Below, one piece after another: positions 1-42,570 of a DNA stretch of 42,570 nt. The stretch lies in IMG/VR virus record IMGVR_UViG_3300036760_000023, positions 1 to 42,570 of that record; one strand, 5' to 3'. Each line of letters begins with the position of its first letter. The stretch's first letter is position 1. The notes below the pieces were generated by a model, which saw only the letters and a program-made list of their open reading frames with translations, ran no database searches and had not been told where the DNA came from. Made by a program: the position numbers and the translations under genes. Source of the stretch: a virus.

Positions 1-225
1 CGGTTGATACCAGGACCCTGGCGACTGATTCTGTTACCACAGCAAAGATCGTAAACGCCGCCGTTGACACCGCGAAATTATCCACGGACGCCGTGACGAC
101 TTCTAAAATCCTTGACCAGAATGTGACGACAGCGAAGATCGCCGCCTTGGCGGTTGATACCTCCAAGCTCGCGTCAGACGCAGTAACAGCCGTGAAGATC
201 CTGAGCGATTCGGCCAGCTTCTCGA
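1..225 (+). repeat. Alternating decapeptide-coding repeats (left end)
   Basis: A 60-base unit encodes the pair AVDTxKLAxD and AVTTxKIxxx. Bases 63-127 are identical to 42443-42507 at the other end of the window, a 65-base exact direct repeat inside the same reading frame. Recent intragenic duplication or gene conversion would explain it, and so could an assembly break in a repeat. Confidence 0.8.
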
Positions 226-2783
226 AGGTGAGCGGAGCCAAGGCGTCCTTTACTGGGAATGACGTCTCCTACATTGGCGCGATAAACACGAACGATCACT
301 ATTCACTCCACACGAGCACTATCCTTCACAGTGAGGGCGCCTCCCTTAGCTTAGGATCGGGTGCCGGAGCGGTGAATACTGACACGAGCGGGAACACGTT
401 TATGGGCACGGCGGCGGGCAATGCTAACACGTCGGGATCGCTGAATACCTGCGTCGGTGTCAGTGCTTGCCGAAACGCCATCACTGGGACCGGAAACGTC
501 TATATGGGGTTTGGAGCAGGGTTTAGCGATGCCGGGGGTGGTTCAAACACCGGAGTCGGTCTTAGCGCAGGAGGAAACAACGTCAGCGGCACCGGGAACG
601 TATTTTTTGGCTATCATGCCGGATTGACGGAAACCGGGTCGAACAAGCTCTATATCGCCAATGGTGAGGCAGACCCAGCGTTGATCTATGGCAATTTCAA
701 CACCGGGCGGGTTGGGATCAGCACACAGGCACCCCAGGCTACACTGGACGTGAACGGGAGTATCTTGGGAGGCGCGATTACCGGGACGACATTCAGCGGC
801 AACGGCGCGGCCTTAACAAGCCTTACTGCGGCCAATATCAGCGCGGGGAGCCTTGGCGCGAGCGTTATTGCGTCCAGCATCGCCTTAAACGCCGTTGGGA
901 CTGGGCAGATCGCCAACTCCGCTGTCGATACAAGCAAGATTGCGATTGATGCCGTGACGACTGTCAAGATCATCAACAACGCGGTTGATACGACGAAACT
1001 GGCGACTGACGCTGTTACGACGGTCAAGATTCTCGATTCAGCGGTGGACACCAACAAGATCGCCACGGACGCCGTGACCGCCGCCAAACTCATTTCAAGT
1101 TCCGCGAGCTTTGCGAAAGTCACGGGAGGGGCGGGCAGCATTTCCGGGTCAAGCGTTTCTTTCGCTGGGACGATTGCGACTACTGGGGACCTGACCGTTG
1201 GAAACGGGACGAACCGCTCTACGGTTTCAGCCTCCGGGTTTATCACTATGGCGAATATCTCAGCGCCTTCAGCGTCGGCTGGAAGGATTTATTTCAATCC
1301 GAGCGGGAGCGGGTCATTAAACGTCAGTCTTGACGGCTCCACGTTCGTCAGCCTCGCAACCGGAACTGTTGGCGCAAGCGGCAATCTCAGCGGAACTCTG
1401 ACGACCGGGAAGTTGCCAAAAGCAACGGGGGTCAATAGCTTGGCCGACTCGATTGTTTCTGAACAAGGAAGCTCCGTTACAATCACGTCGAATTACGGCG
1501 GTGGCCTTCATGTTGGGGTCGGTGGCTTTAACGAAGCGACCATTTCTACCAGGATCATATCGGCGGCAAATCTTGGCGGGGCGTCATATGTGATCGGAAT
1601 GACGACCACGACTGGGAACGGAATACAGCGTGACTCAGCCTTTATCGGTTACGGCGGGGATGCCGCAATCAATAGGTCGCGCCTTTCCGTTTACAACTCA
1701 GTGGCCCAAAGCGGGCTTGCTGGGGCAGAGCTTTATTTCTCACTCTCAAGCGGGACCATCGCGCAGCCTACGTTTTTCTCCAACAATCCCGCCAATGGAA
1801 CTGTTTTTGGAAGATGGACGGTAAATGTTTCGACCGGGCTCGCGCCCCTAAATATGGGCGAGATCAGAATGGTCGTTGATACTTCCTCAGGCACCGGGAT
1901 CAATACCACGGACCCGACTTCACCGCTCAATCTTCCCGTTGCGATGGCGTTCTTAACGGTGCCGTCTACAGCCAATGCGGCAACGGAAAAGATGCGTATG
2001 TCACCAAATGGGGTTTTGATGATCAACGGCACTACCCCGACCTTTGGTACTACTGGCATTGACGTGCAGGGCACCGGGGTAATTAGAACTGTCGGCGGGT
2101 TACTTGTCGGCAGCACCAATACGTTCGATAATGGTTCAGCGATGAACGTCATGGGGCGGGCTATGTTTGGGCAGCAATCGGTCGCTGGCAATAACCTTGA
2201 GATTAACGGTAATGCCTACTCAAACAGTAACAACCCGTGGCTGGCGTTACGCGCTGGCGCGGGTACAAACAACCCGAGCAACTTTATTGGTCGCGCTGGC
2301 GTTGGCAATTTCCAAATCACGGCCAACAGCTATTATCAAAATTCTCTCGGAGCATACACTACCCCCGAGGTAGCGGCTAGTCCGTCTTGGATGATTAGAG
2401 TGAACAGTGGCGATGGTCCGGGCGTCGGCCCAGGATTCGCTCAGGGTGGGGATCGCTTTGACGTGGCCCGTGCCACGGCAACCGCCGGACTCCCCACATT
2501 CTTACCGTATATCAGCGTTTACACCAACGGGAACAGTAACGCGACGGTTATGATTCCCGGTGGCGTAGCGGCTAACGCCGATGGTAATCCGGCAAATATG
2601 TTCCAGATTGGGGCCAGCACGTTCACAGTGACCTACGCCGGTGACGTGAAGATCGGAACGATGACGATAAGCGGGAACGTAGCGCCGCCGAATGGTCAGG
2701 CGCTTTGCCTCTCAGACGGTCAGCTTGGTCACTGTACGAGCATTATCGGGGCAACAGGTGGTTGTACCTGTGTTGCGCCATAA
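1..2783 (+). CDS. Tail fibre / adhesin-like protein, 3' part (5' end cut by window edge)
   Basis: The frame is open from base 3 to the TAA at 2781, so the gene is cut by the left edge; the GTG at 93 is only the first possible start inside it. It begins in alternating decapeptides of the type AVDTxKLAxD / AVTTxKIxxx. These are followed at about 340-660 by Gly/Asn-rich repeats resembling trimeric YadA-like heads, a VGIST...TLDVNGSI segment, a second decapeptide block (891-1104) and a long beta-rich distal part. The C-terminus is rich in cysteine (four within the last 30 residues). Repeats, length and a place directly after the distal tail genes fit a trimeric host-binding fibre. The gene at 41202 is probably its N-terminal half, joined across a circular genome; together they would encode about 1380 residues. 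Receptor specificity cannot be read. Confidence 0.75.
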   Translation, partial: VDTRTLATDSVTTAKIVNAAVDTAKLSTDAVTTSKILDQNVTTAKIAALAVDTSKLASDAVTAVKILSDSASFSKVSGAKASFTGNDVSYIGAINTNDHYSLHTSTILHSEGASLSLGSGAGAVNTDTSGNTFMGTAAGNANTSGSLNTCVGVSACRNAITGTGNVYMGFGAGFSDAGGGSNTGVGLSAGGNNVSGTGNVFFGYHAGLTETGSNKLYIANGEADPALIYGNFNTGRVGISTQAPQATLDVNGSILGGAITGTTFSGNGAALTSLTAANISAGSLGASVIASSIALNAVGTGQIANSAVDTSKIAIDAVTTVKIINNAVDTTKLATDAVTTVKILDSAVDTNKIATDAVTAAKLISSSASFAKVTGGAGSISGSSVSFAGTIATTGDLTVGNGTNRSTVSASGFITMANISAPSASAGRIYFNPSGSGSLNVSLDGSTFVSLATGTVGASGNLSGTLTTGKLPKATGVNSLADSIVSEQGSSVTITSNYGGGLHVGVGGFNEATISTRIISAANLGGASYVIGMTTTTGNGIQRDSAFIGYGGDAAINRSRLSVYNSVAQSGLAGAELYFSLSSGTIAQPTFFSNNPANGTVFGRWTVNVSTGLAPLNMGEIRMVVDTSSGTGINTTDPTSPLNLPVAMAFLTVPSTANAATEKMRMSPNGVLMINGTTPTFGTTGIDVQGTGVIRTVGGLLVGSTNTFDNGSAMNVMGRAMFGQQSVAGNNLEINGNAYSNSNNPWLALRAGAGTNNPSNFIGRAGVGNFQITANSYYQNSLGAYTTPEVAASPSWMIRVNSGDGPGVGPGFAQGGDRFDVARATATAGLPTFLPYISVYTNGNSNATVMIPGGVAANADGNPANMFQIGASTFTVTYAGDVKIGTMTISGNVAPPNGQALCLSDGQLGHCTSIIGATGGCTCVAP
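891..1104 (+). repeat. Second decapeptide repeat block in the fibre
   Basis: The same AVDTxKLATD / AVTTVKIxxx units recur about 700 bases downstream of the first block, separated from it by the YadA-head-like segment. The protein therefore alternates rod-like repeats with globular or head-like modules. Confidence 0.75.
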
Positions 2784-5352: not shown

Positions 5353-6098
5353 TGCTTTCGGTCATTGTTTCCGCACTCCTGTCGATCCTGACCCCCGCGC
5401 CCGTATGGGCGGGGGCGGGGTCGCTGGGTGATTTGGTGGTAATCTCATCGGGTGCTAATACGGCGGGCATCACCGCCGATGGTGAGTTGAAGGTGAGCGC
5501 GTCCATCGTTTCGCCAGCTATCCAAAACGTGAACATTGTAAGCACGTTTTCGCGCACGAACCCAGGCTACGTCTACCTCACCGATGGCGTCAGCACGGCG
5601 TCTGTGTCTGGCGGTGTTTTACAGGTCAGCTTCACGTCAAACCCGAATAGGAAATATTACGCCGTAGCCCCGACGAAAATAAACGCGGCTGTGGCGGCGT
5701 CTGATAACCCAATGCTCATGCTCGTCAACCTTGCGACCAGTACTATCTCGGCAAACATCATCGCCCGCACAATGGGATGCGATGTCTCAAACGTGATTGT
5801 GAATTACAGGACCTTTATCAATCCCGTCGTAACTTCCAGCGGGACTTATATCAAGCCCGTCAGGGTTTACCAAACAGCGGGAATCCCTGAGTCGCAGATA
5901 CAGGCGTATACCTTGCCAACAGTTTCATCGCCAGGAAGCGCGATAGACAACATCGCACAGGGCCAGAACACCGCAGCCGCGCACCGCGAGGATAATCAGA
6001 CAGTTTCAATCGCTCCTGGCAATCGCCTATTGATTACGGCAGACCCAAGCTCGAATAATAGGGCGCAGTATATAAGTGTTAGATGGTTGGAGGAATAA
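5352..6098 (+). CDS. Exported beta-rich protein, relative of the preceding repeat protein
   Basis: This 248-residue protein has an N-terminal signal peptide of about 20 residues (hydrophobic core, VWA cleavage site, then GAGSLGDL). The segment ITADGELKVSASIVSP resembles the GGRLDVNA segment of the upstream protein, so the two may share a fold. The rest is beta-rich, with SNNRAQYISVRWLEE at the C-terminus. It begins inside the upstream stop codon and is immediately followed by the next ATG. Its role is unknown. It is the fourth protein with a Sec signal peptide encoded in this part of the late region if the fibre is counted. Confidence 0.65.
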   Translation: MLSVIVSALLSILTPAPVWAGAGSLGDLVVISSGANTAGITADGELKVSASIVSPAIQNVNIVSTFSRTNPGYVYLTDGVSTASVSGGVLQVSFTSNPNRKYYAVAPTKINAAVAASDNPMLMLVNLATSTISANIIARTMGCDVSNVIVNYRTFINPVVTSSGTYIKPVRVYQTAGIPESQIQAYTLPTVSSPGSAIDNIAQGQNTAAAHREDNQTVSIAPGNRLLITADPSSNNRAQYISVRWLEE

Positions 6099-6698
6099 AT
6101 GACAATTTTAGAACTTGGTTCGTGGGCGGCATTTCGTGATTTGTGCTTCACGAATAAAAACCTCAACAATCAATTTACTGAGGATGGGTTGTGCTACGAC
6201 ATTTATGGCCCAGATGCGAACGGCCTCATATGGCACGTTCGTTTTAATAAAACGGATGCGACCGAATTTGAGGCGAGCTACAAGGCCCTATGTAATTTCG
6301 CCATCGGTGCGCGTGGCTATGCTTTCTCGACCAACGATTTCACCTATAAAGGCAATGGCGTTTATGGGGTTTGCATAGCAGGGCAGACTGTTGACATTGA
6401 CTATACTTTCACCGAAACGCTTTACACGAATGGCGGCGACATCGTGCTTGAGAACTCCGTCCTAGGAGACTGGGTCGAGGTCCACGTCATCCACCCCGTC
6501 TACGGGGCCATCGCTGATTACGTCAACAAGCGATATGTCCCAGCGTCACCATTTGGATACCCGACGCCAGTTATGGCCGTTCACACGCCATATGCGGGCA
6601 AGATTCCAGCGAGCTTAAAGCTGCGTCTGACCTATCACAGCACAGGCGCGACGGACGTTAAAATTGGGGTGAATTACAATTTGCACCTTGCAATATGA
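6099..6698 (+). CDS. Unknown late protein, probable virion component
   Basis: This 199-residue protein starts directly after the preceding TAA, with GGAGG about 8 bases upstream. It shows aromatic- and Asn-rich strands such as LIWHVRFN, no signal peptide and no membrane segment. The C-terminal LKLRLTYHSTGATDVKIGVNYNLHL looks like the last strands of a beta-sandwich. It overlaps the hydrolase gene by ATGA. Position between exported beta-rich proteins and lysis enzymes suggests a virion accessory protein, but no family is recognised. Confidence 0.6.
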   Translation: MTILELGSWAAFRDLCFTNKNLNNQFTEDGLCYDIYGPDANGLIWHVRFNKTDATEFEASYKALCNFAIGARGYAFSTNDFTYKGNGVYGVCIAGQTVDIDYTFTETLYTNGGDIVLENSVLGDWVEVHVIHPVYGAIADYVNKRYVPASPFGYPTPVMAVHTPYAGKIPASLKLRLTYHSTGATDVKIGVNYNLHLAI

Positions 6699-7931: not shown

Positions 7932-8318
7932 ATGAAAGGATTCTTCGCAAGCATTGGCGCAAAGATCGCAGGTCTCTTAAAGCCTTTATGGAAAGGTGCC
8001 GCAAAGAAAATACTTGCCTATGAGTGTTCCGATCTTAGGCTTCGTGCAAAGGCAATGATCGATGAGGACACCGATGGCTCAATCGTTCGGGTTAATCGCG
8101 TGTTTGATGGTTGGCAGAATGCGATCATAAACGGTCTTAACAAAGTCCCGTTCTTGCCTAAGAGCATGGCAGCGTCATTAGCTGAAAAGGTTAATGAAGA
8201 AGGTGATCGAATTCAAGAGAATATTGTTAATGCGATTAAGGAGAGGGGCGCACTTGCCGTCGATGCTGCTTTTGACGGAATCGAAGCCAAGCTGAATAAT
8301 ATTATCGACATGGCGTAA
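7932..8318 (+). CDS. Unknown helical late protein
   Basis: This 128-residue protein is preceded by a strong GGGAGGA ribosome site. The N-terminus (MKGFFASIGAKIAGLLKPLWKGAAKKIL) is an amphipathic, positively charged helix without a cleavage site, and the remainder is helical and charged. It could be membrane-associated and lies directly after the endolysin, so a lysis accessory role is possible. No family is recognised. Confidence 0.6.
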   Translation: MKGFFASIGAKIAGLLKPLWKGAAKKILAYECSDLRLRAKAMIDEDTDGSIVRVNRVFDGWQNAIINGLNKVPFLPKSMAASLAEKVNEEGDRIQENIVNAIKERGALAVDAAFDGIEAKLNNIIDMA

Positions 8319-13824: not shown

Positions 13825-14588
13825 CAACCCTTTATCTTGGGACTATTGGTACGGCGCCAGAACTGGCAACGCTTGCCAGTTTTAAGGGCGAGCAGACCGA
13901 GCCGGCTGTCTTGATGTCTTTTTATTTTCTCAACCAAATACAAAAGACAAACCTTGAACAATACAAAACCGTCCGCACGTTCAAGAATATGCTTGACTCT
14001 GGAGCATATACTGCGAAGTCAAAAAACAAAGTTATTAACATTGATGACCTTATCAAAGAAATTAAAACCGGCAAATGGCAAGAAGCCGCCGCGCTAGACG
14101 TTATTGGTGACCCAAAAAAAAGTTGCGAGAACGCCCTGTACATGAAGAAGAAAGGCGCCAACGCTTTCCCGACGTTTCATTTCGGTGAACCCTGGGAATA
14201 CCTTCTTGAATACGCCAAGAACTTCGACAAGGTGGGACTCGGCGGTTTGGTGCCGGTAAAGTCAGCATCCGAGCGCAATGCCTGGCTCTCAGAATGTATG
14301 AGCCGCATCTGGCCAAAGAAGACCCATGCCTTCGGCGTGATGGGACGCGATAGCCTTATGCGGTTCCCGTTCCATTCTGTTGATTCAACGTCGTGGGAAG
14401 CCGGCGCGTTAATGTTTGGCGGGTATGCTTTTGCCAATGGCCAGAACCTTGGATTAGGCCGCGGTAAGGCTCGGAAAGCGGTAGGCGGCGAAACCTACTT
14501 GCGCCCCGAAGCCTTGCATTATCTTAAGCTCGAGAAGGAAGTAAAGGCAAGATGGGCAGCTGAATTTAAAAAGCAGGGATGGGTCTAA
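13821..14588 (+). CDS. dpdA: DpdA-type 7-deazaguanine DNA transglycosylase
   Basis: This 255-residue protein belongs to the TGT-like superfamily. It has MLDSGAY (57-63), LDVIGDP (92-98), PTFHFGEPWEYL (117-128), KVGLGGLVP (137-145), HAFGVMG (169-175) and FHSVDSTSW (184-192), which follow the strands of the TIM barrel with Asp residues at the strand ends. DpdA relatives exchange guanine in DNA for preQ0 or a derivative. Embedded between queD and queE, its substrate should be the preQ0 made by this operon. The shortness and lack of the tRNA-type zinc domain argue against a tRNA-guanine transglycosylase. Confidence 0.8.
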   Translation: MTTLYLGTIGTAPELATLASFKGEQTEPAVLMSFYFLNQIQKTNLEQYKTVRTFKNMLDSGAYTAKSKNKVINIDDLIKEIKTGKWQEAAALDVIGDPKKSCENALYMKKKGANAFPTFHFGEPWEYLLEYAKNFDKVGLGGLVPVKSASERNAWLSECMSRIWPKKTHAFGVMGRDSLMRFPFHSVDSTSWEAGALMFGGYAFANGQNLGLGRGKARKAVGGETYLRPEALHYLKLEKEVKARWAAEFKKQGWV

Positions 14589-15172
14589 TGTATAAGATCA
14601 ACGAAATCTTTTATAGCATACAGGGTGAGGGTGCCCGCGCCGGTACGGCAAACGTGTTTGTGCGGTTCTCAGGGTGCGATTTAACGTGCGCCTTCTGCGA
14701 TACCGAGTTTGAATCTGGCACCAACATGGACGCCAGGGTTATCGCGGCCAGGGTTGCCGCACTCATGCCTAGCCCCAGGGCGGTTATCCTTACGGGTGGG
14801 GAACCATGCCTTCAGTACGATGCCGAGCTTTATGAGGAACTCCGCGCTATCTTTGTTGATACGATTGCGATCGAAACAAACGGCGGCACAAAACCTAAAG
14901 CGCCGGTCGACTGGGTATCGTGTTCACCGAAGGTCGCCGAGCATGTGGTCGCGGCGAACTTCCCCAATGGGGTAAGCGAATTGAGGTATGTCCGCCATCC
15001 TGGCCAATCAATCCCAGCGCCGGCAGCTAAAGCGCAGTACCTATATCTAAGCCCTGAGTTTAAAGGCAACGTGTTGCAAAAGGAATCCTTGCGGCATTGC
15101 ATTGAACTTGTTAAGGCTAACCCGCAATGGGGTCTTTCTTTGCAGCAGCAAAAACTCTGGGAGGTAAGATGA
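14588..15172 (+). CDS. queE: 7-carboxy-7-deazaguanine synthase (QueE)
   Basis: This 194-residue radical-SAM protein is read from the ATG overlapping the dpdA stop (TAATG); an ATG 9 bases upstream is also possible. It has YSIQGEG at residues 9-15, the cluster motif C30xxxC34xxC37 in SGCDLTCAFCDTEF, and the SAM-binding TGGEPCLQ near 79-86. QueE rearranges 6-carboxytetrahydropterin to 7-carboxy-7-deazaguanine. It overlaps folE by ATGA. The C-terminal LSLQQQKLWEVR resembles the usual end of QueE proteins. Confidence 0.9.
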   Translation: MYKINEIFYSIQGEGARAGTANVFVRFSGCDLTCAFCDTEFESGTNMDARVIAARVAALMPSPRAVILTGGEPCLQYDAELYEELRAIFVDTIAIETNGGTKPKAPVDWVSCSPKVAEHVVAANFPNGVSELRYVRHPGQSIPAPAAKAQYLYLSPEFKGNVLQKESLRHCIELVKANPQWGLSLQQQKLWEVR

Positions 15173-15747
15173 AAGCACAGTTAAATCCGGCAGGGATAAA
15201 GGGATCGCAAGACATACTCGAATTGAATATGAGAGATATTCTGAATTCTCTCGACCACGACGCAACCCGTGAAGGACTTCAGGATACACCTAAACGATGG
15301 GCAAAGATGTTTCTCGAGCTTACGTCTGGCCACGAATTTGAGATGACCACTTTCGAGAACCCAGATTGCGATGAGATGGTTGTTGAAACCGGCATCCCGT
15401 TCTACTCGTTGTGTGAGCATCATCTTATTCCTTTCTTCGGCACCGCGACGGTCGCATACATTCCTAATAAACGCATCGTTGGAATTTCAAAGCTCTGCCG
15501 TACTGTTGAAAATTATTCCCGCAGCCTACAGGTGCAGGAGAGAATGACTCAGCAGATCGCGAACCTTTTACAGTTTAAACTCGAGCCCAAAGGTGTTGCG
15601 GTGATGTTGCGTGCGCGCCATCTATGTCAGGAGATGCGCGGTATTCGTAAGGCTGGCGTTGAAACTGTTACTTCGTGCCTCAAAGGCGCGTTTATGGATT
15701 CACAGATTGTTCGTAATGAGTTCATGCAAATTGCAAGGGGGTCTTAA
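15169..15747 (+). CDS. folE: GTP cyclohydrolase I (FolE)
   Basis: This 192-residue protein is read from the ATG within the queE stop; a longer in-frame start at 15127 would run inside queE. The zinc ligands C82, H85 (CEHH) and C153 have the spacing of E. coli FolE (C110, H113, C181). Further family marks are IVGISKLCRTVENYSRSLQVQERMT-like residues and MRGIRKAG. It makes 7,8-dihydroneopterin triphosphate from GTP, the first step to preQ0. A phage-borne copy frees the pathway from host folate supply. Confidence 0.92.
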   Translation: MKAQLNPAGIKGSQDILELNMRDILNSLDHDATREGLQDTPKRWAKMFLELTSGHEFEMTTFENPDCDEMVVETGIPFYSLCEHHLIPFFGTATVAYIPNKRIVGISKLCRTVENYSRSLQVQERMTQQIANLLQFKLEPKGVAVMLRARHLCQEMRGIRKAGVETVTSCLKGAFMDSQIVRNEFMQIARGS

Positions 15748-16409
15748 TGAAAACATTAATCATCTATAGCGGCGGTATGGACTCAACTGTTCTAATGTAC
15801 GAGCTGCGCGCCAAAGGCCGTGAACTTGTGGCAATGGGAGTCAACTATGGGCAACGACACAAAAAGGAACTCGAGTTCGCATACCGCATGGCAGATAAAC
15901 TTGGTATACCTTTTGATGTCGCCGACCTTTCAACGCTGCGCCCATTCCTGGGCGGCAGTTCGCAAACCGACGATACCATGCCAGTTCCCGAAGGCCACTA
16001 CGCCGCCGAGTCAATGAAGCTGACGGTGGTGCCAAACCGTAATATGATTATGCTGGCCGTGGCGGCCGGTTACGCGATGAGCATTAGTGCTGATACCGTG
16101 GCTTATGCCGCGCACGCCGGTGACCATGCAATCTACCCCGACTGCCGGCCAGAATTTGCCGATGCGCTCGACCACGCGATCGGTTTGGCTGACTGGAAGA
16201 AAGTCAAACTTGAACGACCGTTTATTCATTTGACTAAGACCGAGATCGCAGCTCTCGGTTATTCTTTAAACGTACCGTTTGAAGATACTTGGTCGTGCTA
16301 TAAAGGCAGCGCGTATCATTGCGGCAAGTGTGGGACCTGCGTTGAGCGTCATGAGGCTCTTGGTGAGAAAGACCCTACCGAATATAAAGATGAGCTAACC
16401 TTAATTTAA
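15747..16409 (+). CDS. queC: 7-cyano-7-deazaguanine (preQ0) synthase (QueC)
   Basis: This 220-residue N-type ATP pyrophosphatase has the PP-loop SGGMDS at residues 8-13 and a C-terminal zinc site with C184, C192, C195 and C198. QueC converts 7-carboxy-7-deazaguanine to preQ0 with ATP and ammonia. It is the last gene of the coupled operon; 3 bases after its stop a new promoter begins. No glutamine amidotransferase fusion, QueF or ArcS homologue was seen, so preQ0 itself is the expected DNA base. Confidence 0.92.
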   Translation: MKTLIIYSGGMDSTVLMYELRAKGRELVAMGVNYGQRHKKELEFAYRMADKLGIPFDVADLSTLRPFLGGSSQTDDTMPVPEGHYAAESMKLTVVPNRNMIMLAVAAGYAMSISADTVAYAAHAGDHAIYPDCRPEFADALDHAIGLADWKKVKLERPFIHLTKTEIAALGYSLNVPFEDTWSCYKGSAYHCGKCGTCVERHEALGEKDPTEYKDELTLI

Positions 16410-21311: not shown

Positions 21312-21650
21312 ATGGAAACGGCGGTGATGCGGCGTATTATGTTGAGTCTCGCCGGGATGGCAACAATTTTTAGAAACAACGTAGGCGCGCGGGAGCTTAA
21401 AGATGGATCATATCTTAGATACGGTGTAGGCGGCAAAGGCGGGTCAGACTTATTAGGCTGGAAGACAATTACAGTTGCGAAGAACATGGTCGGCATGAAG
21501 CTGGCAGTGTTTGTAGCAATCGAAGTAAAAGACGGGACCGGCCGCCTCACACCAGAACAAGAACATTTTATTCGTGTCGTTGGTGAGGCTGGTGGTCTTG
21601 CCGGAGTTGCCAGAAGTCCGGAGGACGCCATGGACATCATTGCCCTGTGA
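21312..21650 (+). CDS. VRR-NUC domain nuclease
   Basis: This 112-residue protein is essentially one VRR-NUC domain. It has an N-terminal RNNVGA strand, GGSDLLGW with candidate Asp46, and VAIEVKDGTGRLTPEQEHF with Glu71, Lys73 and Gln83 in the PD-(D/E)XK arrangement. Stand-alone VRR-NUC proteins of phages are thought to cut Holliday junctions or other branched DNA. The gene is predicted to be leaderless and overlaps the primase start (GTGA). The ATG at 21327 is an alternative start. Confidence 0.85.
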   Translation: METAVMRRIMLSLAGMATIFRNNVGARELKDGSYLRYGVGGKGGSDLLGWKTITVAKNMVGMKLAVFVAIEVKDGTGRLTPEQEHFIRVVGEAGGLAGVARSPEDAMDIIAL

Positions 21651-24073
21651 ATCTGCTCGACGAAGTAACCCGTTACCTTGATGCCGGTCTACGCCCAATC
21701 CCAGTCAAGGCCAAAGGTAAAGCGCCAGATTTAACTGAATGGCACGAGTATCAACGGCGTCCGCCAACTAGTGCTGAGATAGCCAGATGGTTCTCAAGTA
21801 GTATTCGCAACGTTGGGACAGTTGTTCCCTCTGGGATAATTGTCGTTGACTTCGACGGTGGCAAGGAAGCAGAGGCTTTACTTGTTGCGGCCGGCGTCAC
21901 CCTACCTGAGAACGCGCCACGGGTACAGTCAGGCTCGGGCGGTTACCACGTTTACCTGCGCTTGCCGGCTGGGGTTAAGGACTTTGCCAAGCTGCCGGGT
22001 TCAAAGTTCTTGCACAGTGTTGATAAGGATGGCAAGCCGTGTAAACCGTTTGTTGAAATCCTTACCATAAATAACTTCGTCGTTCTCCCGCCTTCGATCC
22101 ATCCCAACGGTAAACCTTATAAGTGGGTAGTTGAACTCGAAGAAACAATCCCCGACGCACCCCCAGAACTACTAAAGCTCATCGACGAAAAACGTGGAAT
22201 TGTCGTTAAAAAACCAAGCAAATCTAAAGCCGGCAATGAGCCGGGATGGGTAGAGGAACTCTCTAGGGGAACAGGCCCAGGCACCCACGACGACGCAATG
22301 ACAAAACTGGCCGGCCACTACTTACGCAAGCGGCTTTCAGTGGCTAACGTTATAGACATCATTGCTTCTGGCTATGGAAAGCGTTCATGGCAGGTGCCCG
22401 GTGTTGCCCATACGATCCCGATGGTAGACATTGAACGTGTGGTTAAGTCGGTACAGCGGGCAGAAGCGCGTAAATCTGAAATCAGTGAAAGCGAATTCCA
22501 AATGCTCGGCTACGACCATGAGATATATTATTATCTCTCACGCGCAACGGGACAGGTTGTGCAGTTGACCGCACGCAACCATGACAAGCATAATCTTCTT
22601 CGGCTCGCATCGCTACGTTATTGGGAAGCACATTTTGGCGGTGAGAAGGGAATTAACTGGCAGGGTGCGCAAGCCTTACTTTTGGAGGCCCAACACAATG
22701 TCGGCATATTTAGCCATAACCGCTTCCGCGGCCGTGGCGCTTGGTGGGACGAAAGCGCAGGGGCAGTCATGCATACTGGTGGCTCGCTCGTAACAAAAGA
22801 ACGTTCTATTCCAATTAAAGAACTTCCTCTTGGTCGCTATATATACGAGCTCTCTGAACCACTTGATATTTCAATTGGCGATTCTCTTAAGATTGATGAC
22901 GCTAGACAAATAATTGAAATCTTCGAATCCCTATCGTGGGAGCATCCGCATCACGCACGCCTTGCGGCGGGCTGGTGCGTGATTGCAACAGTGTGCGGTG
23001 CGGTAGATTGGCGACCACATGTTTGGATTAGCGGCCCGTCGGGAAGTGGTAAGTCTTGGACCGTTGATCACCTTATAAAACGACTACTTGGAAACCTGGC
23101 ATTAAGCGCACAAAGCACAACGACCGAAGCCGGCTTACGGCAAACTCTTGGACACGACGCAAGGCCGGTAATATTCGACGAAGCAGAAGCGGAGGGACAG
23201 CGTGATGATATTAGAATGGCAAATGTACTTGGACTTATTCGCCAAGCATCTTCTGAGACCGGTGGCTCCATCCTTAAGGGATCGGCCGACGGCTTTGCTC
23301 GTACTTATCGGATACGTTCTTGCTTTGCTATGTCTTCTATCAATGTTAGTGCGTATCAAGCGGCTGACAGGAACCGTATCACGATCTTAGAAATGAAGAC
23401 GCCGGAGGAAAACCGCGATTCGGCGTTCGCCGCGCTTTGCGCGCGAGTCGCCGAAACGTTCACCGACCGTTTCATCGACGGCTTCCGCGCCCGATGCGTG
23501 CGGATGATTCCTGTTATTAGACAGAACGCACATATCTTTTCAATAGCCGCAAGTGGCAAGATTGGCAACAGACGACTTGGAGATCAGGTCGGGACATTAT
23601 TGGCAGGCGCTTATACCTTATTAAGCGACGATGTAATAAACCCAATTGAAGCGGCAGAGCTTCTTGAGGATCAAGACCTTACACAACAACGCGAGCTTAA
23701 GGAAGAGAAGGACGAGGCCGATTTGCTGGCCCACATTATGCAAGCGGTGACGAAGGTTGGGACGGTGCGCGGGTTTATTGACTGCAACGTGTCGACACTG
23801 GTGCAGGCTTCAATGATCCCTGTTGAGGGGCAAGAAATTGCGGCGCGTGATGCTATTAACGCCCTGGCGCTACTTGGTCTTAAAACCAACGAGGAGGGGT
23901 TGGTTATCGCAAATACGCACAGGGGTGTGCGTAGGCTGCTTGAAGGGACCCACTGGGGCAAAGACTGGGGGCGGGTCCTCAAACGCTTACCTAACGTCAG
24001 GTTAAGCGGACTGGTGCGAATTGGCGAGGTGGTGTGCCGTGGGGTTTTGATACCCTGGGGAACTATAAAATGA
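21647..24073 (+). CDS. Primase-helicase (prim-pol plus D5/DUF927-like ATPase)
   Basis: This 808-residue protein starts at a GTG in the previous stop. Residues 1-170 are a bifunctional primase/polymerase domain: LRPIPVKAKGKAP, VVDFDGG with catalytic Asp pair (about 65-67), and SGSGGYHVYLRLP with the catalytic His. The C-terminal half has a SF3/D5-like ATPase with P-loop SGPSGSGKS (about 461-469) and Walker B VIFDEAEAEG near 507, followed by a sensor-like SSINVSAY. It probably primes and unwinds phage DNA. The GTTACA array begins 5 bases after its stop, as expected for an origin near its initiator. Confidence 0.88.
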   Translation: MNLLDEVTRYLDAGLRPIPVKAKGKAPDLTEWHEYQRRPPTSAEIARWFSSSIRNVGTVVPSGIIVVDFDGGKEAEALLVAAGVTLPENAPRVQSGSGGYHVYLRLPAGVKDFAKLPGSKFLHSVDKDGKPCKPFVEILTINNFVVLPPSIHPNGKPYKWVVELEETIPDAPPELLKLIDEKRGIVVKKPSKSKAGNEPGWVEELSRGTGPGTHDDAMTKLAGHYLRKRLSVANVIDIIASGYGKRSWQVPGVAHTIPMVDIERVVKSVQRAEARKSEISESEFQMLGYDHEIYYYLSRATGQVVQLTARNHDKHNLLRLASLRYWEAHFGGEKGINWQGAQALLLEAQHNVGIFSHNRFRGRGAWWDESAGAVMHTGGSLVTKERSIPIKELPLGRYIYELSEPLDISIGDSLKIDDARQIIEIFESLSWEHPHHARLAAGWCVIATVCGAVDWRPHVWISGPSGSGKSWTVDHLIKRLLGNLALSAQSTTTEAGLRQTLGHDARPVIFDEAEAEGQRDDIRMANVLGLIRQASSETGGSILKGSADGFARTYRIRSCFAMSSINVSAYQAADRNRITILEMKTPEENRDSAFAALCARVAETFTDRFIDGFRARCVRMIPVIRQNAHIFSIAASGKIGNRRLGDQVGTLLAGAYTLLSDDVINPIEAAELLEDQDLTQQRELKEEKDEADLLAHIMQAVTKVGTVRGFIDCNVSTLVQASMIPVEGQEIAARDAINALALLGLKTNEEGLVIANTHRGVRRLLEGTHWGKDWGRVLKRLPNVRLSGLVRIGEVVCRGVLIPWGTIK

Positions 24074-24077
24074 ACAC

Positions 24078-24409
24078 CGTTACAAACGTTACAGCACCGT
24101 TACAAGATTTTACGAGGGAATGTAACGTTGTAACGTTTGTAACATATATAAATATATATATAGTGGTGTGGTGTGTTGTGTATACATTTATAGGGGTATA
24201 CAATTATGGGGGTCTGTCGTGGGGAAAAAACGTTACAACGTTACAATGTGATTATGTCTAAACAATATAAACACAATTTATCTGCGAAAAGTGTAACGGT
24301 GCGAACGTTACAACCCAAAAAGGGGGGGTCTGGTGCCCTAATTAGGGTAGACCCGCTCCACCGTAAAGCATGGTTAAAGGGGGTTGAGCTACCCCCGCTG
24401 ACCGTTACA
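24078..24409 (+). repeat. GTTACA iteron-like array with AT-rich core (candidate origin or operator cluster)
   Basis: CGTTACA lies on the + strand at 24078, 24087, 24098, 24231, 24239, 24306 and 24403, and its complement TGTAACG at 24121, 24129 and 24292, with TGTAACA at 24138. Neighbouring copies are 8-11 bases apart. Between the divergent sets lies an AT-only run (24144-24161), a likely unwinding element. The array spans the gap between the primase-helicase and the winged-helix gene and continues into the latter. Iterons plus an AT-rich segment next to replication genes fit an origin; autoregulatory operators are the alternative. Confidence 0.7.
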
Positions 24410-24583
24410 GAGCTACAGGTCCTCGCATGGCTACTTGAACTCAAAGGTAAGACAGTTACCCGCCAGTTCCTATTAGGGAAGGCATGGAAGCCTGGCAGCC
24501 GCAGCGTGGACATGATGGTTTCAAACCTAAGACGCAAGGGTATAGAGATCAAGACGGTGCCTGGGGAGGGTTATTACATATGA
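24254..24583 (+). CDS. Orphan OmpR/PhoB-type winged-helix DNA-binding protein
   Basis: From the ATG at 24254 the protein has 109 residues; a start at 24206 (AGGGG upstream) would add 16. Residues 30-109 are a complete Trans_reg_C domain: the N-terminal strands IRVDPLHRKAWLKGVELPPL, LTVTELQVLAWLLELKGKTVTRQFLLGKAW, the recognition helix SRSVDMMVSNLRRKG and the wing VPGEGYYI. There is no receiver domain, so phosphorylation control is absent. GTTACA repeats like known OmpR sites surround and enter the gene, so it probably binds them. TACAAT sits 6 bases before this ATG, a further possible leaderless start. Confidence 0.75.
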   Translation: MSKQYKHNLSAKSVTVRTLQPKKGGSGALIRVDPLHRKAWLKGVELPPLTVTELQVLAWLLELKGKTVTRQFLLGKAWKPGSRSVDMMVSNLRRKGIEIKTVPGEGYYI

Positions 24584-38827: not shown

Positions 38828-41205
38828 TGCAATCGACGAGCGCAGAGTTTGCGGCAATCATGGGCGACCAGAATGGTGCCAAGTTTGCCAAGCGCAAGAT
38901 TGAATATAAGCGCCGCTATTGGAACGGCGCGGCTTATGTGTATGAGGCCAGCTACCAAATCCTCTACGACGATGATATCTTAAGTGTCACCCCTATTGCA
39001 TGGCGCCTTGACTCGCGTCAACAGAATAAAATTTTAGCTTCGAACGTTACGCTGCGGCTTAAGAATACTGATTGGAAGTGGCTGCTTGAGAATATTACTA
39101 GCGGTATTTTCAAACCAGATGGAACCGCGACAGAAGGTTACGATGATTTCCGTACTGAGTTTAAGATTTCTTACGGCTACTTATTGTCGAGCGGCAGCTA
39201 CGAATATATTCCGCTGTTCGTTGGGTATGCAACAGATTTTCTTTTCAGTAGTGATACGATGGCTGCCGAGATTCAAGTTGAGGGCCGCGAGTTACTGCTT
39301 GAACATGCGAACGCACAGAATGTCAATACACCATATACACTCCAAGCGGCGGTGCCAGCGGTTGGCACCGGCTCGCTACTAACTTTTGAAACGAAGAAAT
39401 CAGTTTGGGAAATCAGTCAAGTGCGCGTCAATGGCGTAGTGAAAGTCCAAGGTGCCGACTATACGCTTGAGGACATGAACCTCGGCGATACCGCGGCGAA
39501 GATTATATTTACCATTGCACCAACAAGCGGGCACGCGGTTGATTGGAATGGCACCCAGTGGTTACGCGACCAGCGCATTTCAACGCTGGTCGAGTACCTT
39601 TGTGACGAGGCTGGCATCACATCGCCTGAGCGCGTAATAACTGAGCCTACCTTCCCAGGAGTTTCGCAATTCTCAGAATACGGGTCAGCAAGCGAATGGA
39701 ATGCCGCCACGAAGGTTAATACGAACAGCTTTTTCTTGCCTGGGTTTTTGCAGATTGGCACTCTCATTGGAAACAATGGCTTTGAAAGCGGGGTGTTCGG
39801 GTCAGATTGGGCGGTGGCAACAAATACCCCAGGATCGGGGTCATCTTCTGCTGCGGTTGTATCTGCCAGCCCAACAGCTTACGAGGGTACATATTCCGCT
39901 AGGATGATATTGGGCGAAGATAGCGAAACAGCTACGTTTACTGGAAAGGCAATCGTAATGCTACTGTCAACGGCTACCGCGCCGACGACTTTCCCGCCAG
40001 CGGGAACATATAAAATTTTATCCAATACTGGCTCGGTTTGGACTGAGGAAACAATCGTTCATCCTGGCGGTGTGAAATATTTACATTTCGCAATTTACGA
40101 CGAAACAGATAACGGCCTTCGCGCAGTAATTACGCATCAAACCCCAAGCTCTGTGCCGCAAACAATCAGCTTCCACTATCAAGCGCGTTCCCCTATCAGC
40201 ATTAACCCTAGCTATATTTTCAGTATTGACGATGTACGCATGAGGGCGATTGTAGCTAACGGAACGACTGAAACGACGGAAATTGATTTATTATCGACTC
40301 CGACCGCATGGCTCCCGCTGGTTCACCTAACGACTCTTAACGGTGGTACAGTTAGTTTTGAAACAAAGACCGCGGCCATCTCTGGCGGTCCTTATAGTTC
40401 ATATGTCGCAACTGATGGTTCGCTGATTCCACAAAGTCCTGTTAATCGTTACATCAAAGTCAAGATTTACATGAACCACAATGGAACGAATTCAAATGGC
40501 CCAGAAATGGATTATTTGCGCATTGCGTTCCTTGGTTCAAATCTTTTTATTGGTCATGCAGATTTTAAATCAAAAACCTGTCTCTCTGCGATTCAACGTT
40601 TAGCTGAGATATCAAATTGTGAATTTGGCTTTAGAGGGAATGGCAACTTCTTCTTTAGGCCAAAAGGTGTCAGTCCAACTGCTGTTCTTAATATGACCGA
40701 AGGCAATTATATTTCAAAGCTAAGGTCGCTTCGCCGTGGTTATGATTTCGTGCAAAATGTCGTCGCCATAACTTACGGTCCATATTATCATGAGGAGCGG
40801 GTCGACACGCAAAGCCCTGCCCTTGACGAACCAAATAGTGAACAACGATTTTATCCGGTGCTGCTTGCAAAGAGTATTAATGAATTCCTTTTCTCAAACA
40901 ATGCAAATTTCGCCGAAGCAATTGCGAAGAATTATTTTGAAGATTTTTCACCGGCTAAGAAACGATGGATTGCAGAGACTAGAATCATTCCGCCTCTTGA
41001 ACTCTCTGATGTTTTGAGTTCTGCTTTCTACGATAGCCCGCTTCGCAAGAACGCCGTGTTCGGTGATATTCTAAATACTGATCCGGCTTTCGGTCCAGAT
41101 TACAGGAACATCCTACGCGCAACCCTTGGAAAGACCTTGGGAATTTCGTTTAATACGGATAATGGGACCTGTTCAATTGAACTCCAAGAGGTACTAACGT
41201 CATGA
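38827..41205 (+). CDS. Tail-tip hub protein with carbohydrate-binding-like insertion
   Basis: This 792-residue protein has N- and C-terminal parts typical of siphovirus tail-tip/hub proteins (residues 1-200 and about 580-792, such as SPALDEPNSEQRFYPVL). Between them, about residues 316-480, lies a separate beta-sandwich starting NNGFESGVFGSDW and containing AYEGTYSARM, the look of a CBM4/9-like sugar-binding module. A further beta module follows. The insertion suggests contact with a host polysaccharide. It overlaps the fibre start by ATGA. Confidence 0.75.
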   Translation: MQSTSAEFAAIMGDQNGAKFAKRKIEYKRRYWNGAAYVYEASYQILYDDDILSVTPIAWRLDSRQQNKILASNVTLRLKNTDWKWLLENITSGIFKPDGTATEGYDDFRTEFKISYGYLLSSGSYEYIPLFVGYATDFLFSSDTMAAEIQVEGRELLLEHANAQNVNTPYTLQAAVPAVGTGSLLTFETKKSVWEISQVRVNGVVKVQGADYTLEDMNLGDTAAKIIFTIAPTSGHAVDWNGTQWLRDQRISTLVEYLCDEAGITSPERVITEPTFPGVSQFSEYGSASEWNAATKVNTNSFFLPGFLQIGTLIGNNGFESGVFGSDWAVATNTPGSGSSSAAVVSASPTAYEGTYSARMILGEDSETATFTGKAIVMLLSTATAPTTFPPAGTYKILSNTGSVWTEETIVHPGGVKYLHFAIYDETDNGLRAVITHQTPSSVPQTISFHYQARSPISINPSYIFSIDDVRMRAIVANGTTETTEIDLLSTPTAWLPLVHLTTLNGGTVSFETKTAAISGGPYSSYVATDGSLIPQSPVNRYIKVKIYMNHNGTNSNGPEMDYLRIAFLGSNLFIGHADFKSKTCLSAIQRLAEISNCEFGFRGNGNFFFRPKGVSPTAVLNMTEGNYISKLRSLRRGYDFVQNVVAITYGPYYHEERVDTQSPALDEPNSEQRFYPVLLAKSINEFLFSNNANFAEAIAKNYFEDFSPAKKRWIAETRIIPPLELSDVLSSAFYDSPLRKNAVFGDILNTDPAFGPDYRNILRATLGKTLGISFNTDNGTCSIELQEVLTS

Positions 41206-42570
41206 GAAAACTTTTAATGGCAGCGGTGCTTGCGCTGTTGCCCGCTCTTGGACAGGCAACATGCACTCAACTCGGCACCGGGTTGATGTTGAGCCGCCCT
41301 GCGATTGGTGACTCCTTCGACATCTGGACCAGCTGCATCAGGACTATGGTGCAGCAGGTCAACGATTCGGCGGCCAGCACGACCACGGTCGCCGCGATCG
41401 CGGCCAGCACTGGAACACTCGCCGCAGGCACCACTCAATTCCTGCGCGTCGACGGCTCCAACAACATATCTACCTTGACGGTCAGCGGCAACAAGATGTC
41501 GGTCGGGGTATCAACATTTGTAGTGAACGGGGGACTGGTCAGCATCGGCACAGCAGTTGTTAGTAGTCGGCTAACTGTGTTTAATGGTGACATTAGAATT
41601 AGTACCAATGCGGGCTCGCGCGGTATTATCTTCCAAGATGGGACAACTCAGGTAAGTGCTGCGGCGACTATTGGCGCGCTGGGCGGTGATCTTACTGGCA
41701 CTCTGCCCAACCCCACGATAGCAGCCGGAGCAGTAGACACTGGTAAATTAGCGTCAGACGCCATTACCACGGTCAAAATCATAAACGCTGCGGTCGACAC
41801 AAACAAATTAGCCGTTGATGCTGTGACCACAGCTAAAATACTGAACCTGAATGTAACTACTGCTAAGATCGCGGCTTCGGCCATCGACACCAGTAAACTG
41901 GCGACGGATGCCGTTACCACGACCAAGATCATAAACTCAGCGGTAGACACCAGCAAGTTAGCGGCCGATGCCGTGACGACTATCAAGATTCTTGACCAGA
42001 ACGTGACGACGGCCAAGATCGCGGACTCTGCGGTCGACACAAACAAATTGGCCACGGATGCCGTCACCAACGTAAAACTCTTGTCGGATGCGGCTAGTTT
42101 GTCCAAAGTCAGCGGGGGGACTGCCTTTTCTTCCGGCGGAAGTGTCGGTGTTGGGACGTCATCTCCGTCCAGCAAACTCACTGTCTTTAACGGAGATATT
42201 CGGATCAGCACTAACACCGGCTCACGCGGGATAATTTTTCAAGATGGAACGACTCAGACGACCGCAGTTACTAGCGGAATCTCTCAGTTGACTGGGGATG
42301 TGACGGCTGGGCCTGGATCGGGGTCACAAGTTGCGACTATATCTGCGGGTGTTGTCGATACGGCGAAGCTCTCTTCGGATGCTGTTACGACTGTGAAAAT
42401 CCTGAATCTGAATGTCACAACTGACAAGATCGCGGCCTCTGCTGTTGACACCGCGAAATTATCCACGGACGCCGTGACGACTTCTAAAATCCTTGACCAG
42501 AATGTGACCACAGCGAAGATAGCCGACAGCGCGGTCGACACAAGCAAACTCGCTGCGGACTCGGTAACGA
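41202..42570 (+). CDS. Tail fibre / adhesin-like protein, 5' part (runs off right edge)
   Basis: The ATG overlaps the hub stop (ATGA) and the frame stays open to the last base (456 codons plus one base). The first 19 residues look like a signal peptide (MRKLLMAAVLALL core, LGQA cleavage site). A short helical region, a LTVFNGDIRIS...FQDGTTQ cassette, decapeptide repeats, a second copy of the cassette and more repeats follow. The leftover single base plus the two bases before base 3 keep the frame into the left-edge ORF, so both are probably one gene. A Sec signal on a fibre is unusual. Confidence 0.75.
   Translation, partial: MRKLLMAAVLALLPALGQATCTQLGTGLMLSRPAIGDSFDIWTSCIRTMVQQVNDSAASTTTVAAIAASTGTLAAGTTQFLRVDGSNNISTLTVSGNKMSVGVSTFVVNGGLVSIGTAVVSSRLTVFNGDIRISTNAGSRGIIFQDGTTQVSAAATIGALGGDLTGTLPNPTIAAGAVDTGKLASDAITTVKIINAAVDTNKLAVDAVTTAKILNLNVTTAKIAASAIDTSKLATDAVTTTKIINSAVDTSKLAADAVTTIKILDQNVTTAKIADSAVDTNKLATDAVTNVKLLSDAASLSKVSGGTAFSSGGSVGVGTSSPSSKLTVFNGDIRISTNTGSRGIIFQDGTTQTTAVTSGISQLTGDVTAGPGSGSQVATISAGVVDTAKLSSDAVTTVKILNLNVTTDKIAASAVDTAKLSTDAVTTSKILDQNVTTAKIADSAVDTSKLAADSVT
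41571..41651 (+). repeat. Fibre cassette copy 1
   Basis: This 81-base segment encodes LTVFNGDIRIS...GSRGIIFQDGTTQ. It has a homologous copy exactly 606 bases downstream, so cassette plus decapeptide stretch form a duplicated unit of about 202 residues. Confidence 0.8.
41730..42108 (+). repeat. Decapeptide repeats, first block of the N-terminal half
   Basis: About twelve decapeptides alternate between AVDTxKLAxD and AVTTxKIxxx. The alternation is strict and the DNA copies differ mainly at third positions, so selection keeps the protein repeat. Confidence 0.8.
42177..42257 (+). repeat. Fibre cassette copy 2
   Basis: This segment encodes the same 27-residue cassette as 41571-41651 with three conservative changes, and many silent changes in the DNA. 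Confidence 0.8.
42350..42570 (+). repeat. Decapeptide repeats at the right edge
   Basis: The repeats continue to the last base. Bases 42443-42507 are identical to 63-127. A direct end-to-end join keeps the frame but would give one repeat pair lacking about seven residues, so some repeat DNA may be missing. Confidence 0.75.

Follow-up and report, generated by a model that had tools for sequence, protein, structure and literature searches.

A GTTACA iteron array downstream of a phage primase-helicase gene and its likely role in replication initiation

The GTTACA array and the genes around it

We analyzed a virus record from IMG/VR (the window), which has 42,570 bases and is classed as linear. 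On its forward strand lies a gene (21647–24073) for a primase-helicase of 808 residues, in which a Prim-Pol domain is followed by an AAA helicase and a C-terminal winged-helix-like domain. This assignment is based on profile matches (PF09250, E = 5e-23, for Prim-Pol; PHROG 35358, E = 2e-102; plus the AAA part), an AF2 model and fold matches, and the protein is the putative iteron-binding initiator of the locus. The codons of its C-terminal domain, a candidate DNA-binding domain (residues 677–808), occupy positions 23675–24070 (+). Those of a beta-hairpin within it (residues 785–796, RLSGLVRIGEVV), which we propose as the iteron-reading segment, lie at 23999–24034 (+), with the codon of Arg791 at 24017–24019 (+). 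The primase-helicase gene is followed by the repeat array and by a gene for an OmpR-type winged-helix protein without receiver (24254–24583, +; PF00486, E = 1.4e-9), for which an alternative upstream ATG at 24206 is possible. A PD-(D/E)XK nuclease gene comes next.

Elsewhere in the record, a radical SAM gene (QueE-like by context) and a QueC gene, located at 14579–15172 and 15747–16409, probably belong to a 7-deazaguanine DNA modification pathway. Matches to tail-fibre-like PHROGs at either end of the record (93–2783 and 41202–42569) suggest a circular or permuted genome interrupted within a tail-fibre region.

The whole window contains 20 GTTACA/TGTAAC sites, eleven of which are located within 24079–24409 whereas the remaining nine are scattered. 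The eleven exact sites start at 24079, 24088, 24099, 24121(-), 24129(-), 24138(-), 24232, 24240, 24292(-), 24307 and 24404, with start-to-start steps of 9, 11, 22, 8, 9, 94, 8, 52, 15 and 97. A sequence-only reading of this DNA had described eleven sites within 332 bases, some of them in tight groups with 8–11-base spacing, around an AT-only segment and adjoined by a primase-helicase gene and a receiver-less OmpR-type gene. This description is borne out: the sites span 331 bases, the steps within groups are 9 and 11, 8 and 9, and 8, the AT-only segment covers 19 bases (24144–24162), and both genes are recognized by their profile matches. The array is confirmed as real; in 60–100 Markov-shuffled versions of the segment, no 6-mer formed a cluster of more than 6 sites, versus 11 in the real sequence.

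The sites are organized around a spacer. Three exact reverse iterons (TGTAAC; 24121–24143, -) lie to its left and two exact forward iterons (24232–24245, +) to its right, and a perfect 18-bp inverted repeat (24121–24138 and 24228–24245) brackets it. The spacer itself (24144–24231), a proposed duplex-opening region, starts with the 19 AT-only bases and continues as simple sequence with a G-rich top strand. Outside this core, three exact forward iterons form an outer group at 24079–24104 (+), and one reverse and one forward iteron form another at 24292–24312, within the 5′ part of the OmpR-like open reading frame. The lone exact site at 24404–24409 (+), 92 bases beyond the other sites and inside the OmpR-like gene, is probably due to chance. 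A hairpin predicted at the array (z = -4.5) is formed by the iterons themselves. Two near-identical 16-bp tandem units, each beginning with GTATACA, were also observed in the spacer at 24180–24211. A scan of the region for sigma-70 promoters revealed no excess over shuffled sequences. Cumulative GC skew, which had been suggested as a check of an origin near 24.1 kb, shows no extremum there; the curve climbs almost monotonically across the window and is uninformative as evidence for an origin.

Arrays recur after the primase stop codon in relatives

Named phages, IMG/VR and GTDB genomes served as sources for relatives of the helicase half of the protein. Each of the first four loci from IMG/VR carried an array directly after the primase stop codon, with the letters CGTAAC (L001), CGTCACA (L002), GTTACA/GTCACA (L003) and CGCAACA (L004). 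Counting the window, 64 of the 149 loci contain a 6-mer cluster above all 60 shuffles. A significant cluster is present between -60 and +440 from the primase stop in 44% of the 136 testable loci, versus 0–6% at thirteen other 500-bp offsets, and about half of the relatives are without a significant cluster at this post-stop position. As to the conservation of the array in relatives, a check proposed by the sequence-only reading, similar arrays recur after the primase stop with changed letters. Arrays of the same kind are found away from the primase stop in some loci that lack one there, either upstream (L010, around 1485) or 1.7–3 kb downstream (L068, 4011; L124, 6801). Two further distant arrays of this kind were observed in L051 (3457) and L136 (6713).

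The first open reading frames downstream of the array fall into 44 clusters among 48 array loci, and no downstream gene is common to the array loci, the primase itself being the criterion by which they were collected. On sequence grounds, the array belongs with the primase-helicase gene, whose stop codon ends at 24073, and not with the OmpR-like gene.

The iteron letters vary from locus to locus (GTTACA, GTAACA, CTGACA, GGGACA and others) and the arrangement recurs; the layout thus persists while the letters drift. With all motifs turned to end in ACA (or AGA), 30 of 53 loci show a reverse-spacer-forward organization around their longest gap, a count for which orientation and motif were set by hand and in which related loci are not independent. 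The spacer measures about 60–115 bp, often around 85–115 bp, and sites within groups are commonly 8–10 bp apart. Many loci read as two reverse sites 8 or 9 bp apart, the spacer and two forward sites 8 or 9 bp apart, often with an additional reverse/forward group 30–60 bp further on. In 35 loci, the AT content of the best 30-bp stretch of the spacer averages the 95th percentile of its own locus, and in 83% of these loci the spacer exceeds the 95th percentile in AT content, purine-pyrimidine alternation or low complexity, or in more than one of them.

The OmpR-like winged-helix protein could have been the reader of the GTTACA array and served as origin initiator or regulator. Its gene lies next to the array and overlaps part of it, its family consists of DNA binders, and the L001 locus, whose helicase half is 74% identical, carries a homologue at the same place. 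Several observations make this role highly improbable. The L001 array reads CGTAAC despite the homologous gene. In L022 (helicase half 58% identical) the array is present and the OmpR-like gene is absent, a PD-(D/E)XK gene being found further along. PF00486 was detected in only one of 50 related whole records, that of L001, some of these records being fragments, whereas the same search was positive in 10 of 14 control genomes. Finally, the repeat letters co-vary with a hairpin of the primase-helicase, as described below. The sequence-only reading had also given GTTACA-N4-GTTACA as a frequent form of OmpR sites that fits the repeats, but such a site has no match in the window, even with up to one mismatch allowed. 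We rejected the OmpR-like protein as reader of the array on account of the L022 array, the rarity of PF00486 and the missing GTTACA-N4-GTTACA arrangement.

The array is independent of the OmpR-like gene, which is accessory cargo and is not required for it. The resemblance of the locus to OmpR/PhoB-type transcription factor systems (PF00486) lies in the presence of such a domain, without receiver, in the neighbouring gene; the difference is that this domain is missing from nearly all array-bearing relatives. An adjacent transcription factor-like gene and a repeat resembling the sites of its family can thus coincide by chance, which is a warning for similar cases. The OmpR-like protein may regulate its own promoter, which would sit in the array. 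By inspection, it lacks residues present in its L001 homologue immediately on either side of the recognition helix. No relative besides the one on the L001 contig was found in IMG/VR, and comparison with named phages gave only weak matches to host-like regulators. In L022, a thyX-like gene, identified by reading its translation (5910–6671), occupies the slot of the OmpR-like gene of the window, and genes are apparently exchanged at this slot behind the array.

Repeat letters and a C-terminal hairpin change jointly

In three pairs of close relatives, every iteron differs between the two members: L053/L064 (TGTAACA and GTATACA), L045/L090 (GTAACA and GTGACA) and L057/L073 (GCATACA and TGCAAAC). 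In the L045/L090 pair, all 12 GTAACA sites are in register with GTGACA sites, and the motif of the partner occurs in neither locus. In these three pairs, residues 785–796 of the primase-helicase contain 4, 6 and 6 changes out of 12 positions, versus 17/517, 61/525 and 48/513 elsewhere. In pairs with unchanged iterons, by contrast, only 4 of 174 changes fall in these residues (Fisher p = 0.001). Of 514 windows of 12 residues, the one covering residues 785–796 ranks highest, a result that random placement equalled in none of 5000 trials. In L073/L092, where iterons are the same, the upper part of the C-terminal domain is 72% identical and the last 65 residues are 98% identical.

Since this segment was picked after looking at the data, we repeated the comparison on newly fetched loci, leaving out the discovery loci and using 27 non-overlapping different-iteron pairs and 35 same-iteron pairs; some of the loci (that of the window with L001, L077, L097 and others) had been seen earlier, though they were not used in choosing the segment. 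The median ratio of change in the hairpin to change in the rest was 2.5 for different iterons versus 0 for the same iterons (p = 1.4e-7), and the best discriminating windows were again located at 784–802. Because same-iteron pairs are on average closer relatives, pairs were also compared after matching for identity, each switch type contributing a single value, which gave p = 0.0027; the p-values of the retest are optimistic because pairs share ancestry. Repeat letters and the C-terminal hairpin thus change jointly. Over all loci, Mantel tests of iteron distance against domain identity gave weak correlations that single out no one domain (C-terminal part, r = 0.18, p = 0.03; N-terminal part of the helicase half, r = 0.19, p = 0.018; AAA part, 0.11, not significant).

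The hairpin may also contain a letter code. At the position of Arg791, 31 of 35 lineage entries with iterons in ...AC carry Arg or Lys, some entries sharing a lineage; none of the seven ...AG entries does, and these have Tyr, Trp or His instead. A blind column scan with crude AC/AG classes and the full amino-acid alphabet ranked position 791 ninth of 509, and the permutation test was not significant. When residues were instead grouped into categories and another classification was applied, a second blind scan put it first among 507 (uncorrected p = 4e-4; four AG lineages only). Since the classifications behind these three versions were chosen differently and with the data already seen, the single-residue code is to be taken as a lead. 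An Arg contacting the G opposite that C would be chemically sensible. We tentatively suggest, as a reading with nearly even chances of being right, that this family reads its origin iterons by the C-terminal beta-hairpin through a simple code (Arg/Lys at 791 for ...ACA, an aromatic residue or His for ...AGA or ...AGG), and that phages have repeatedly switched iterons and hairpin together. If so, hairpin switches would give new origin specificities, predictable from the protein sequence.

Known replication systems and a proposed mechanism

The AF2 model of the primase-helicase, built with 110 sequences, has a mean pLDDT of 92.1. Its best full-length PDB match is SCCmec Cch (5dgk; Z 15.5, rmsd 7.3, 432 residues aligned over 4..529), followed by SaPI5 PriRep1 (7ola, Z 14.5; 7om0, Z 14.2), and fold comparison indicates that a helicase fold of the Cch/PriRep1 type is present. 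The C-terminal domain alone (pLDDT 91.8) terminates with a helix pair and a long beta-hairpin, with residue 791 in the first strand of the hairpin. Its PDB matches are weak (Z 4.7–5.0), though informative in kind. They include the pCW3 relaxosome accessory protein, for which a structure with oriT DNA is also available, and SaPIbov1 Rep in its C-terminal part (8tch, residues 452–553; Z 4.8, rmsd 3.8, 92 aligned). Foldseek gave no match for this domain at E <= 0.001, and a profile search of PDB sequences returned weak hits only.

The self-loading helicases SaPI Rep/PriRep1 and SCCmec Cch/Cch2 are thus the closest solved helicase folds. For SaPI Rep and Cch2, the helicase gene is immediately followed by an iteron origin, which these proteins bind via their C-terminal domain (PMC7581432), and as in the window the iterons flank an AT-rich stretch. 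The differences are that these systems belong to staphylococcal islands whereas the window is a tailed-phage genome, that protein identity is about 8–12%, and that the iterons differ (AAGTG for Cch2). Membership in one family with SaPI Rep would rest on the helicase fold. The crenarchaeal plasmid protein pRN1 ORF904 and the phage BIP-1 replication protein share with the window protein the combination of Prim-Pol, helicase (SF3) and C-terminal winged helix. The pRN1 ORF904 origin also lies 3′ of its gene, but is a 100-nt stem-loop without iterons (PMC4234260), whereas the window has iterons and its predicted hairpin is built from them.

The alpha protein of satellite phage P4 likewise combines primase and helicase in one polypeptide, and an iteron cluster is adjacent to its gene on the 3′ side. 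The P4 crr iterons (GGTGAACA) begin about 50 bp after the alpha stop (50–350 bp) and pass the same cluster test as those of the window. These type I iterons also end in ACA, about 9 bp apart and in both orientations, with different letters. The primase of P4 alpha is of the bacterial TOPRIM type (PMC4234260); since that of the window protein is a Prim-Pol (PF09250), the latter protein is not a member of the P4 alpha family.

Taken with these precedents, position, geometry and close-relative comparisons agree, and on that account the array is very probably the iteron part of a replication origin, recognized by the phage's own primase-helicase just downstream of the gene. By analogy, the best explanation is that it would act like the iterons of P4 alpha or SaPI Rep. 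The sequence-only reading had proposed a candidate origin with the OmpR-type protein as its initiator or regulator: the first part is backed by the same lines of evidence, whereas the second is not supported, in view of the array kept without the gene, the spacing mismatch and the co-change of the primase-helicase with the repeats.

Two other roles for the array can be considered. Iteron clusters have copy control as a common extra role, and in P4 the annotated ori lies 4.5 kb from crr, which holds the equivalent position. The array could accordingly be a cis site for the primase-helicase rather than a start point, either a crr-like element or an inhibitory or copy-number site, with initiation elsewhere. 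We consider this unlikely, given that the record has a single GTTACA cluster and that the AT-rich spacer between inverted groups resembles an opening site. The GTTACA sites could also be priming start sites for the Prim-Pol domain, instead of or besides helicase binding, since the NrS-1 polymerase requires an 8-nt template sequence (PMC7102993) and CCPol-MP primes inside the iterons of its own element (PMC7581432). Arrays are however also found behind relatives whose annotation is CHC2 or another DNA primase, not Prim-Pol, and the letter changes go with the C-terminal hairpin, which makes this reading very improbable.

For an origin read by the primase-helicase, we infer physical binding, double-hexamer loading, melting and origin activity. 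The C-terminal winged-helix-like domain, with the beta-hairpin around 785–796, would bind each CGTTACA, as the joint change of hairpin and iterons indirectly suggests. The inverted groups at 24121–24143 and 24232–24245 would set two helicase assemblies face to face across the spacer, these assemblies would melt the AT-rich stretch (24144–24231), and the Prim-Pol domain would then prime the first strands.

No description of this array family was found in the literature searched. As far as the searched papers show, three features are new: how broadly the family occurs in phages, a geometry that recurs while the letters change, and the hairpin that co-changes with them. Phage primase-helicases of this group, widespread and for the most part unannotated, can thereby be assigned a likely origin and initiator. 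Natural origin pairs, i.e. close relatives with all repeats switched, come with a matching changed protein segment, and a change of origin specificity in self-loading initiator helicases is therefore testable by ordinary binding assays.

The spacers themselves are of several types. Many are AT-rich, that of L002 contains a (CT)n microsatellite (8154–8200), and those of L045, L090 and L081 contain alternating CG/CA; the (CT)n and CG/CA types are possibly alternative routes to an easily opened duplex. An element resembling CCCCCTATAGAGA recurs in the spacers after the primase stop in L061, L065, L077, L085 and L097, and is perhaps a second origin element.
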